From Hysterangium stoloniferum (taxonomy: Eukaryota > Basidiomycota > Agaricomycetes > Hysterangiales > Hysterangiaceae), in NCBI GenBank assembly GCA_015178975.1, contig WHVD01000095.1:186001-250000 (forward strand): a DNA stretch of 64,000 bases, read 5' to 3'. The notes below the pieces were generated by a model that searched no databases, was not told the origin of the DNA, and saw only the letters and a list, made by a program, of their open reading frames with translations. This document shows positions 55,353 to 62,967 of this stretch, piece after piece (the first letter of the stretch is position 1; the number at the start of each line of letters is the position of its first letter). The position numbers and the translations under genes were made by a program.

Positions 55353-58300
55353 ATGTCTAAGCAGTTTGCAGAAGACCCTAGCTCCGCTGAATCACAGATA
55401 CCGTCTGTCTCAGGTATTAAATCAGAATTGGCACCAGATGAGGCATTCAGTGTCGATAATGGCTTAGAAAGCGAGAACGATAACCCCTATAGTAAGAATC
55501 TTCAATCGGATTCAATAATATGGTCGTTATATCTGGAGGAAGCGGAAAAGGAGGACAAGGAACTTGCCAAATCATTGCAAGTTGGTGTCGACCAGCTTCT
55601 CATCTTTGTACGTGGAATACATTCTCCTTTATATCGTCTTCAATTAATTCACATTTTCACAGGCTGGTTTGTTTGGAGCGATTCTTACCGCTTTCCTGAT
55701 TGAAAGTAGGAAAGATTTGCAGGTGGATCCTCTTCAGGAAATCCTTCAGACGCTCCAACAACGCTTAACTGCAACTACCTCTCCGCCTTTTAAAGTCTCC
55801 AAATCATCCCTTATTGTCAACTATTTGTGGTTCAGTAGTCTCGCTCTCACTCTAATCAGTGCACTTTGTGCTGTACTTGCAAGAGAATGGCTGACGAAAT
55901 ATATTCCTGCATCCCCCGCAAGTCACTCAAGTGATGCATGTGAACGTCTCCTTCGTTTTATCAGAGCAGAACAGTGGCGACTGGAGGCAATTGTTACTGG
56001 AATTCCGGTTTTCATTCAACTCGCTCTCTTTCTTTTCTTTCCAGGTCTCGTCTTATTCACGTGGCATAGCAGCGTAGGTTTAGGCGTTGTCATACTTGTT
56101 TTAACCACATTCGCAGTTGCGCTATATGTACTCGGTACCATCTTTCCCTTGCTTTCCCCCGCATGTCCCATTGAGACAACAATCTCACGGTTTTTTCCAT
56201 TCGTCTCTGCACGCGCCAAGTATAAGACATCCAAATCAGCCTTCCTTTGGTCATCTTTTCCACAGAAAAGCCCGTTCTTGGTCAAAACGAATGGCAAACC
56301 TCTACGGGCCGAAATTGAAGCTGATGTCCTGGCATGGGCGATTGCAAAATCCACATCGGAGAAGACAGTTAAGGAAGCGCTTAGGGCCGTAGCAGGTGCT
56401 AAACATTGTGAACCGTTGCGGATTGCATTGTGCCAACGAGCCGTAACGGACAAAGTATGCAAAATCTTGGCGAACTGCTTTCACGTTACTGCGGCCACCG
56501 TCACCTTATCTGATGCAGACACTGCCGAATTTTCCCTCCTTGCAATTTCACGATTCCTATCGCCGCGTATAGACAACAGCAAAATAATGGACAAAGAGTA
56601 CCTTGCCCCCTTCAACACCCTCCTGGAAGGTGGGAGACCCTTAAATCGGCCGGACAGTTTACCGCCTTTCCTGCAGACAACGGGGTGGGCAGCTCATCTT
56701 GGTATTTTGGCAAATATGGATGGTGGTAACGTGGGGGTCTCGTTAGGCAGACAAATTCAAAATTTGGTCACTGTGGGTGCAGCACCTTACGAACGAAAGG
56801 CTTTGATATTGGCCGCTATGGATGGAGCATCGTCACGACATGACAACTTAAGTACAAATTGCGAAGGAACGATGTTGGCATATTGGGATCATGGTAAGAA
56901 CTTCTCCATGACTACGAGAAAGACTCTAATTGGGCAGCAGAGGATTGCCGGAGGATGATCGAAGAGCAGGTTGTAAAAGGAGGTGAACTGACTTCACGCA
57001 GTGAATTAAAAAACAGATACCTAACTTTATCATCACGACAGGCGAAAAAAAACAGTGGATAAAGAAACTGACACAGCGTAGCAGAGAAGGTTCTCAAAAA
57101 GTACCTGACCAAACAAAACTGTTACTTTTCGAATGTGGTAAGAGAATCCCAATGGAAAAGGGAGGACGATATAATATGCACCGATTTTCAGCTAGACTTG
57201 GAAGTGGCCTCCATGGTGCGATTCGTGACTTCGTCACACTACTAAAGGACTCTGACGAGAACGTTCGATCCTGGGGATTATCGGCACTGGGGAAGCTTTC
57301 AAAGCAAGGTGTAGTGGGTGATAATGTGATCGGAATCCAGCTGACATTTGACCACAGGCGAATTTCGAAGGGCCATTGCGGGTGCCATTCCCGACGTTGT
57401 TACACTTCTGAAGGACTCTGACGAGGACGTTCGATCCTCTGGAGTATCGGCATTGGTGAAGCTTTCAGAGCAAGGTGCAGTGGGTGATAATGGGATCGGA
57501 ATCCAGCTGACATTTGACGACAGGTGAATTTCGAACGGCCATTGCAGGTGTCATTCCAGACATTGTTGCACTTTTGAAGCACTCTGACGGGTACGTTCGA
57601 TCCTCGGGAGTATCAGCACTGGCGATGCTTTCGGACCAAGGTACAGTGGGTGATAATGGGATCGGAATTCAGCTGATATTTCACCCCAGGCGAATTTCGA
57701 AGGGCCATCACGGGCGCCATTCCCGAGATTGTTCGACTTTTGGAGGACTCTGGCGTGTACGTTCGATCCTCTGGAGTATCGGCATTGGCGAAGCTTTCAG
57801 AGCAAGGTGCAGTGGGTGATGATGGGATCGGAATCCAGCTGACATTTGACGACAGGCGAGTATCGAACGGCCATTGCGGGTGCGATTCACGACATTGCTG
57901 CACTTTTGAAGGACTCTGACGAGGTCGTTCGATCCTCGGGAGTATCGGCATTGGTGAAGCTTTCAGAGCAAGGTGCAGTGGGTGATAATGGGATCGGAAT
58001 CCAGCTGACATTTGACGACAGGTGAATTTCGAACGGCCATTGCAGGTGTCATTCCAGACATTGTTGCACTTTTGAAGCACTCTGACGGGTACATTCGATC
58101 CTCGGGAGTATCAGCACTGGCGATGCTTTCGGACCAAGGTACAGTGGGTGATAATGGGATCGGAATCCAGCTGACATTTGACGACAGGCGAATGTCGAAC
58201 GGCCATTGAGGGTGCCATTCCCGACATTGTTGCACTTTTGAAGGACTCTGACAAGGACGTTCGATCCTCTGGAGTATCGGCATTGTCGAAGCTTTCAGAG

Positions 58301-60884: not shown

Positions 60885-62967
60885 CTACCCAGATTCAACC
60901 TTGACGTGCTTGGAGGAAAGTTGGGTCTCGTAGAGGCGGTTATTTGTTTCCGTATGTTTGGTAAGTGAACCATTGCCTCGCACACTGCCCTAATTTATGG
61001 ATTTTCAACTGACATTTGACGACAGGCGAATTTCGAAGGGTCATTGTGGATGCCATTCCTGTCGTTGTTGCACTTTTGAAGGACTATACGTCCCTCGCTC
61101 GATCCTCGGGAGCATTGGCACTGGCAGAGCTTTCAGAGCAAGGTGCAGTTGGTGATAATGGGATCCGAATCCAGCTGACATTTGACGACAGACGAATTTC
61201 GAGCGGCCATCACGGGTGCCATTCCCGAGATTGTTGCCCTTTTGAAAGACTCTGACGAGCACGTTCGATCCTCTGGAGTATCGGCACTGGCGAAGCTTTC
61301 AGAGCAAGGTGCATTGGGTGTTAATGTGATCGGAATCCAGCTGACATTCGACGACAGGCGAATTTCGAACACCCATTGCGGGTGCCATTCCCGATATTGT
61401 TGCACTTTTGAAGGACTCTGACAATTACGTTCGATCCTCGGGAGCATCGGCACTGGCGAAGCTTTCAGAGCAAAGTGCACTGTGTGATAATGTGATCAGA
61501 ATCCAACTGACATTTGACGACAGGCGAATTTCGAACACCCATTACGAGTGCCATTCCCGAGATTGTTGCACTTTTGAAGGACTCTGACGATGAGGTTCGG
61601 TCCTGTGGAGTTTCGGCACTGGGGAGGCTTTCAGAGCAAAGTGCAGTGGGTGATAATGGTATCGGAATCCAGCTGACATTGGACCACAGGCGACTTTCGA
61701 ACGGTCATTGCGGGTGCCATTCCCGAGATTGTTGCACTTCTGAAGCACTCTGAGGACCATGTTCGATCCTCGGGAGTATCGGGACTCGCAGAGCTTTCAG
61801 ATCAAAGTGCAGTGTATGATAATGGGATCGGAATCCAGCTGACATTTAACCACAGGCGAATTTCGAAAGGCCATCACGGGTGCCATTCCTGAGATTGTTG
61901 GACTTTTAAAGGACTCTGGCGTGTTCGTTCGATCCTCGGTAGTATTGACAATGGCGAAGCTTTCAAAGCACGGTAACTGGGTGATAATAGGATTGGAATC
62001 CAGCTGACATCTGACGACAGGCGAATTTCGAACGGCCATTGCGGGTGCCATTCCCGAGATTGTTGGACTTTTGAAGCACTCTGACGACAATTTTCGATCG
62101 TCTGGAGTATCGGCACTGGAAAAGCTTTCAGAACATGGTGCGGTGGGTGATAATGGGATCGGAATCCAGCTGACATTGACCACAGGCGAATTTCGCACGG
62201 CCATTACAGATGCCATTCCCGAGATTGTTGCACTTTTGAACCACTCTGATTGGGCCCTTCAATGCTCGGTAGTATCCGCACTGGGGAAGCTTTCAGAGCA
62301 ATGTACAGTGGGTGATAATGGGATCGGAATCCAGCTGACATTTGACGACAGGCGAGTTTCGAACGGCTATTGTGGGTGCTATTCACGACATTGCTGCACT
62401 TTTGAAGGACTATACGCCCCTCGTTCGATGCTCAGCAGTATTGGCACTGGCGAAGCTTTCAGAGCAAGGTACAATGGGTGATAATGGGATCGAAATCTAG
62501 CTGATATTTGACGACAGGCGAATTTCGACCGGCCATTGCGGATGCTATTCCCGATATTGTTGCACTTTTGAAGGACTCTACGTCGTACGTTAGATCCTCG
62601 GGAGTACAGACACTGGTGGCGCTTTCAGAGCAAGGTGCAGCGGGTGATAAAGGGATCAGAATCCAGCTGAGATTTGACCACAGGCGAATTTCGAACCGCC
62701 ATTACGGGTGCCATTCCCGAGATTGTTGCACTTTTGACGGACTCTGACAGGTACGTTCGTTCCTCGGGAGTATCGGCACTGGCGAAGCTTTCAGCGCAAG
62801 GTTAGTGTTCCATGATGGCATTGCCATCGAGCTGACATTCAGCCACAGCCGAATTTCGACCAAACATTGCCAATAGTATTCCCAGCATTGTTAAACACTC
62901 TGAGGATACATATTTGCCCCGTCCAGAAGAACTCGTTGACTTGCTCGCTGAACTAGTCCCCCATGGT
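60885..62967 (+). CDS. Second HEAT-exon series, either a neighbouring gene or alternative 3' part
   Basis: A possible first exon (about 60885-60960) has a frame RFNLDVLGGKLGLVEAVICF and a donor GTAAGT. Its intron (60961-61025) ends in the same CTGACATTTGACGACAG tail as the array introns. Eleven 117-nt exons follow (61026 to 62800), all open, then an exon from 62849 reading EFRPNIANSIPSIVKHSEDT and ELVDLLAELVPH. This exon either stops at TAA near 63005 or splices on at GTGCGT. No DUF6535 part precedes it, so it is either a duplicated 3' portion or is reached from array 1 by skipping the exon at 60345. Confidence 0.55.
61026..62848 (+). repeat. Array 2: 11 exon-intron units of 165-166 bp
   Basis: Exons start at 61026, 61192, 61358, 61524, 61690, 61856, 62021, 62186, 62352, 62518 and 62684, and all are 117 nt. 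Introns are 48 or 49 nt. The units are more diverged from each other than in array 1. The last introns have different donors (GTAACT at 61973, GTTAGT at 62801). All exons are open in phase 1. Exon ends vary (CAA G, CAA A, CAT G, CAA T), which changes only the junction residue. Confidence 0.9.

Follow-up and report, generated by a model that had tools for sequence, protein, structure and literature searches.

A Predicted 41-Exon Gene with Near-Copy HEAT Exon–Intron Cassettes in Hysterangium stoloniferum

Organization of the Predicted Gene

The stretch of DNA analyzed here, referred to as the window, comprises 64,000 nucleotides (nt) of the basidiomycete Hysterangium stoloniferum (assembly GCA_015178975.1, contig WHVD01000095.1, positions 186,001 to 250,000 of the forward strand). 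It contains one predicted gene (55353-63496, plus strand) of 41 exons, whose joined coding sequence of 6,135 nt has no internal stops and encodes 2,044 residues. The product is ordered as a membrane-type part with DUF6535, the repeats of 20 HEAT exons, a middle part from two exons, the repeats of 11 further HEAT exons and a C-terminus (Table 1). It is reasonably probable, in our view, that this gene of near-copy HEAT cassettes encodes a membrane-anchored recognition receptor, in which recombination maintains the similarity of the repeats and selection favors differences at two residues in each. An initial annotation had placed the structure at 57358..62848; the array is indeed located there, but the gene model is wider.

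It was verified that the front protein is 100% identical to GenBank BU17DRAFT_53375 (P0001) of H. stoloniferum over 40% of the query open reading frame (ORF), and that the joined N-terminal part matches PF20153 (DUF6535) with an E-value of 6.9e-46 and 156.8 bits, the cut-off being 23.9. The hydropathy profile revealed several membrane-type stretches at about residues 75-255 and one weak stretch near residue 1999. When the first 16 repeats (H1-H16) were joined, the Pfam families HEAT (E 4.1e-57) and HEAT_2 (E 3.9e-49) were matched, and this profile match, together with the helix pairs seen in the structure model of the relative P0034, assigns the repeats to the HEAT/armadillo class, as expected from the earlier proposal of one HEAT repeat per exon. 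Under the gene model, the first intron is in phase 0 and every intron after NT2 in phase 1; all exons from L1 through C3 are phase 1-1, and the skipping of any of them would be frame-neutral. At the 3′ end, a TAA or TAG is found at the place aligned with the C4 stop in ten paralog rows, the window's own row having ended before the stop, and the C-terminal ending of the Mycena albidolilacea protein P0119 resembles that of C4. We infer the splicing of all 40 introns from the DNA and, given that the two arrays are linked through ordinary coding exons, a single gene is likely. In GenBank, the family is split into short or partial proteins (models P0001, P0034-P0038 and P0040 of H. stoloniferum), several of which are named "armadillo-type".

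Table 1. Parts of the predicted gene in the window and the evidence for each.
Feature	Coordinates	Strand	Evidence
NT1, first coding exon, ATG at 55353, 85 codons	55353..55607	+	GenBank P0001 has identical letters over the NT1-NT2 join
NT2, DUF6535 exon, several hydrophobic stretches, phase 1 end	55663..56893	+	PF20153 match and hydropathy scan
L1, linker exon, 42 nt	56941..56982	+	Splice sites inferred by alignment with 12 paralogs
L2, linker exon, 96 nt	57042..57137	+	Paralog alignment
HEAT array 1, H1-H20, 117 nt each, 19 cassette introns of 48-49 nt	57192..60461	+	Exon-by-exon reading
M1, middle exon, 291 nt	60516..60806	+	Open M1-M2 path at 7 of 13 loci
M2, middle exon, 96 nt	60865..60960	+	GenBank P0037 and P0040 make the identical M1-M2 join
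HEAT array 2, H21-H31, 117 nt each, cassette introns of 48-49 nt	61026..62800	+	Exon-by-exon reading
C1, C-terminal exon, HEAT-like start	62849..62965	+	Paralog tblastn match and exon reading
C2, C-terminal exon	63020..63142	+	Paralog alignment
C3, C-terminal exon	63190..63306	+	Paralog alignment
C4, last exon, TAG stop at 63494-63496	63357..63496	+	Stops in paralog rows and Mycena ending (see text)

Exon–Intron Cassettes in the Window

Tandem Repeats Finder reported a single array at 57245-62802, with a period of 166 and 33.4 copies. By direct reading, 31 HEAT exons were recognized within 57192-62800 (H31 at 62684-62800), each exactly 117 nt long, open and in phase 1 at both ends. The initial annotation had described these exon properties accurately and had also recognized two arrays, but its count of 29 units, corresponding to H2-H19 (18) and H21-H31 (11), overlooked H1 (57192-57308) and H20 (60345-60461). 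Similarly, H1-H19 and H21-H31 are each followed by an intron with GT...AG ends and the anticipated length; of these 30, 26 have 49 nt and four have 48 nt, whereas the CTGAC motif attributed to all of them is present in only 27 and, not being universal, in 297 of the 367 introns of the wider locus set described below.

The introns had been regarded as almost identical, which is consistent with the mean diversity of 0.089 among the 26 window introns of 49 nt, against a pairwise difference of 0.179 of sites among 30 of the 31 window exons (those above the score filter). It had also been suggested that each exon is copied jointly with its intron; accordingly, the blocks 57358-58021 and 58686-59349 (664 nt) share 97.6% identity through exons and introns, and H5 matches H13 at 99.4% over 160 nt. 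With exon and intron duplicated jointly and the phase symmetric, the units are tandem exon–intron cassettes.

The Cassette Family Across the Genome

The genome searched was the 111-Mb assembly of 554 contigs, in which the window lies on contig 550; H. stoloniferum is listed among the genomes in PMC7550596. A pattern of the exon/intron boundary, allowing up to three mismatches, gave 680 genome matches, which is above chance given the 0 matches of the reversed pattern, and a 333-nt query gave 461. Fifteen regions were extracted which, together with the window, represent 14 array loci, with 19 to 35 detected exons each, and two fragments, L044 and L045, with four and five. Two arrays were present at 13 of the 14 loci, the exon starts flanking the break being 642-681 bp apart, and L033 has one array; among the 13 paralogs in this one genome, array 1 has 10-20 detected exons and array 2 has 11-21. 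The DUF6535 front part was found at 12 of the 13 other loci, L033 being the exception, and parts of the C-terminus, by tblastn, at nine of them (L031, L032 and L035-L041), L042 being cut by the region end. These shared front and C-terminal parts, the linked arrays and the spread of the family lay beyond the view of the initial annotation.

There are 75 DUF6535 matches in the genome. Besides those at the loci above, 17 of them are followed on their own strand, at no more than 8 kb, by at least one listed boundary match (a hand count, in which about 100 of the 680 places were listed). One of these 17, L047, has 35 exons in two arrays, and another DUF6535 locus, L046, has 11 more diverged exons, some of them damaged. 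Counted together, at least 31 DUF6535 loci carry cassettes (13, the 17 and L046), most of the 17 being identified by boundary matches alone. With respect to the fragments, L044 (minus strand, ~5472-6050) and L045 (plus strand, ~4236-4815; coordinates on the cassette strand) are short and located on different contigs, and they have an identical 1-nt deletion and an identical truncation within a repeat, suggesting that one copied fragment probably moved.

A total of 399 exons was detected at the 14 array loci and the two fragments; one was cut by the locus end and 398 were measured. Of these, 386 are exactly 117 nt long, and the intron length deviates from 49 nt in 87 of 367 cases (exon versus intron length change, Fisher p = 1.5e-19, counts before realignment of odd exons). 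The earlier claim that length changes are confined to introns holds for all 31 window exons but not for the wider set, where 12 exons differ. Six of them are altered by multiples of three (hand count from alignments), and four of the other six belong to L044/L045; in addition, the first exon of L031 has lost 8 nt, and the single array of L033 carries a 1-nt insertion at its end. The window copy is intact under the gene model. A gap in the visible alignment row of L038 hints at a small M1 deletion, which would truncate that protein after array 1.

Homogenization of Cassettes and Diversity of Codons 22 and 23

For the diversity counts, 361 of the 399 detected exons were retained (117 nt, stop-free, score >70). 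The nearest relative was located in the same locus for 199.1 of the 361 exons, when 7% would be expected and the maximum in 200 shuffles was 46, and the distance within loci was lower than that between loci at 14 of 14 loci. As exons are most like those of their own array, whole cassettes are, by these distances, homogenized within arrays. Unequal crossing-over or gene conversion would move complete cassettes, and phase 1 on both sides of the exon would allow their gain, loss or skipping without breaking the frame. Introner-type intron insertion is a known concept, and its action on an older intronless array was considered; this origin is unlikely because the position of the intron is constant and it is duplicated along with its exon.

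Among the 361 exons, codon 22 encodes 16 amino acids and codon 23 encodes 18, giving 64 kinds of residue pairs; codons 2, 10, 16, 17, 36 and 38 are nearly fixed, and the pooled diversity of codon 24 is low. This pair of hypervariable codons in each exon had also escaped the initial annotation. Amino-acid change per site was 0.32-0.56 at codons 22-23, against 0.04-0.20 for synonymous change elsewhere and 0.02-0.14 for introns, and it exceeded both at 14 of 14 loci (Wilcoxon p 1.2e-4, an approximate value, the test consisting of pairwise difference counts in which recombination is ignored). The share of transitions was 0.30 at codons 22-23, 0.42 in the rest of the exon and 0.44 in introns, and this lower share speaks against transition-type hypermutation. 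In the structure model of P0034, helix A corresponds to repeat positions 1-18 and helix B to positions 22-36, with about 80-85 pLDDT (predicted local distance difference test) for residues ~560 to 690 of a model that is poor overall. As modeled, therefore, the variable pair sits at the first turn of helix B, the second helix of each repeat.

Relatives in Other Species and Comparable Systems

An armadillo-type protein of Mycena albidolilacea (P0119; 1,679 residues, 41% identity) resembles the window protein in the order of its parts, namely DUF6535 (E 8.7e-46), a HEAT array, a middle part, a second HEAT array and a similar C-terminal end, and its repeat period is likewise mostly 39 residues. 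Considering the 15 repeats in register, that is, those with another repeat exactly 39 residues on, the most variable positions were 23, 26, 21, 22 and 30 (0.73, 0.72, 0.70, 0.68 and 0.68), with positions 22 and 23 having the most residue types, seven each. By this comparison, P0119 has a variable zone in common with H. stoloniferum, the pair standing out less sharply. The comparison with P0119 covered the protein sequence, and the arrangement of one exon per repeat refers to the H. stoloniferum gene model.

Additionally, four proteins from metagenome-type sources (P0039, P0043, P0044 and P0048) have a spacing of mostly 55 residues, equivalent to 165 nt, which represents a 39-residue repeat plus 16. 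In the metagenome-type proteins, 18 of the 20 inter-repeat strings caught have 17 residues, and all begin with GK, which would fit a GTAAR donor; as GK or GE at the start and A at the end were preset in the search, the informative features are length and inner letters. These proteins seem to result from gene callers reading through in-frame 48-nt introns between 117-nt exons of another fungus. A query made of the Mycena-type and metagenome-type repeats found matches of only 48-64% in the H. stoloniferum genome, and the source is therefore likely another species. If the read-through reading is right, the cassette plan would be older than the intron sequences, which are alike within an array and different between species. 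Such public protein entries may mislead annotation.

Several known systems share part of this arrangement. The repeats of transcription activator-like (TAL) effectors are helical and uniform apart from two neighboring residues next to the loop between the helices, as here; they are bacterial, bind DNA, have ~34 residues and contain no introns, and the comparison, in which no homology is claimed, is based on the position of the variable pair alone. Tandem exon and intron copies in symmetric phase also occur in the animal apolipoprotein(a) and nebulin genes, in which, unlike here, the units are larger and, to our knowledge, no hypervariable pair occurs in each exon. Designed armadillo proteins and importin-alpha, the latter with a fixed ligand class, differ in having repeats of ~42 rather than 39 residues, and they are not known to have exon cassettes.

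A further parallel is offered by fungal NOD-like receptors, for which PMC4986451 describes conserved repeats, concerted evolution and diversifying selection. As in HNWD of Podospora (PMC4986451), near-identical repeats, concerted evolution, a few diversified positions per repeat and gene families are observed; the combination of alike repeats with few positions under diversifying selection was found here by pairwise counts, codon models having been used in that study. HEAT repeats accompany one NACHT type in fungi, according to PMC12258605. Unlike these receptors, the window protein has DUF6535 in place of NACHT/NB-ARC in the parts scanned, and its repeats are separate exons copied with their introns. 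The N-terminal 541 residues gave DUF6535 only, the 25 families listed for H1-H16 (28 in total) included no NACHT/NB-ARC, and the middle and C-terminal parts matched no Pfam family at E 0.01, in a scan that left out H17-H31. From the parts scanned, the assignment as a NOD-like receptor was rejected, although the protein likely works in a similar way. When the modeled DUF6535 exon (mean pLDDT 69.9) was compared with the PDB, nothing matched at E <= 0.001; designed armadillo proteins ranked highest, on scores too weak for any use. The nank (NACHT-ankyrin) genes of Tuber melanosporum, described in PMC4986451 and PMC9815663, likewise form a family of repeat receptors with numerous small exons and perhaps varied splicing; their reported exon size is 3 bp, whereas the H. 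stoloniferum exons encode a whole 39-residue repeat.

Alternative Interpretations

Several observations weigh against the proposed receptor and the gene model beneath it. The model is a prediction from the DNA sequence, and the donor of 21 of the 30 window cassettes is GTGCAG or GTACAG, weak in comparison with the usual fungal GTRNGT. Among the paralogs, L032 and L041 have one premature stop each and L031 has a frameshift in its first HEAT exon; the M1-M2 path is open at seven of 13 loci, L042 with an odd start, and a script search found no open path at the other six (L032, L037, L038, L039, L041 and L043), so that several paralogs may be broken or truncated. Codon 27 is as diverse as the hypervariable pair (0.53 pooled over loci), diversity is likewise elevated at codons 4, 21, 33 and 35, and codon 22 takes only 13th place of 38 at L043. 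The simplifications of the selection test also belong here, as do the mean pLDDT of 58.7 of the P0034 model and the ligand and phenotype of the receptor, which are putative only.

The stops, frameshifts or closed middle part of some paralogs, as well as the several retroelement ORFs in the window, would suit a decaying repeat, either a pseudogene or a satellite, whose frames are left over from recent amplification with nothing translated, and recent copies could remain open by chance for some time. This appears quite improbable, given that all 31 window HEAT exons and the remaining exons are open in one frame, that length change spares exons and not introns, that change at all 14 loci is concentrated in a few codons that adjoin almost invariant ones, and that the architecture is kept in a Mycena protein. 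It was also considered whether two genes are present, the first reaching past array 1 to the in-frame stop 60851-60853 and the second composed of array 2 and the C-terminus. The frame after H20 does reach this stop if the intron before M1 is ignored, the path search was negative at six of 13 loci, and GenBank P0034 and P0035 use other splicing for the M2 region. However, that intron resolves the stop, which was rejected as a gene end: in the window, M1 and M2 connect both arrays in frame with GT-AG introns, GenBank P0037 and P0040 join them in the same way, and Mycena P0119 is a single predicted protein with both arrays. Two genes are hence very doubtful.

It is unlikely that the solenoid serves as a scaffold or in trafficking, with its residue variation reflecting drift or local mutation bias. 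HEAT/armadillo solenoids have many such roles, the structure-search rows include importin-alpha, CAND1 and beta-catenin, and variation extends to codons 4, 21, 27, 33 and 35; on the other hand, codon 22-23 diversity is above that of the adjoining introns in 14 of 14 arrays while codon 24 is low, and at least 31 cassette loci would be unusual for a housekeeping scaffold. A tentative possibility, still on the doubtful side, is that varying sets of cassette exons are skipped, generating many repeat combinations from one gene. The symmetric phases from L1 to C3 would keep the frame in every skip, the donors look weak, and there is a fungal precedent in the truffle NACHT-ankyrin genes with codon-sized exons, as reported in PMC9815663 and PMC4986451. 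Nevertheless, symmetric phase is equally expected from the duplication of a phase 1-1 cassette, and skipping is putative.

Other Features of the Window

Retroelement ORFs (RVT_2, RVT_1 and copia-type gag; reverse transcriptase and gag) are found at 449-1822, 19155-20483, 25201-26439, 28684-29571, 41823-43388 and 54471-54971, and a weak RNase H match, under the Pfam cut-off, lies immediately upstream of the gene. A PIF1-like helicase ORF fragment (13938-14456, E 3.3e-11) may belong to a Helitron-type element. The window also contains an 18-bp minisatellite at 48742-49023 (15.7 copies, 98% match, inside ORFs on both strands), a 23-bp unit with a near-palindromic core at 37088-37218 (5.7 copies, 99% match) and a 5-bp GGAAC array at 37839-38081 (48.6 copies). 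A structured RNA was rejected, with 0 Rfam matches in the window at curated thresholds.

Implications for Fungal Recognition Systems

In the receptor interpretation, the solenoid would lie in the cytosol behind the DUF6535 membrane helices, and a changing non-self ligand would be bound through the variable residues, in the first turn of each second helix. Recombination would keep the repeats alike while selection diversifies two residues in each. As the best reading of these sequences, the protein evolves as the repeats of fungal NOD-like receptors do, yet without a NOD domain, each repeat being a portable exon–intron unit. A further step, rather unlikely as matters stand, would be that one exon equals one recognition module, with a two-residue key on a constant repeat. 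The solenoid would then read successive units of an extended ligand, and new specificities would be created as cassettes are relocated, converted or perhaps spliced across about thirty loci.

A comparable cassette-exon gene of fungi was not described in the titles and abstract beginnings of a literature search that covered subscription literature thinly, which is weak evidence of novelty; one paper in the search names DUF6535. The structure explains why public annotation fragments such genes, and its hundreds of near-identical exons are a natural resource for studying recombination, splicing fidelity and diversifying selection on one repeat unit. If true, the receptor would represent a second route, beside NOD-like receptors, to fast-evolving fungal recognition surfaces, and the innovation would be at the level of gene structure, in which the intron is copied and homogenized with its exon and phase-neutral cassettes are safely gained or lost. 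If the modular reading also holds, this would be a modular, NOD-free recognition system of mushroom-forming fungi.

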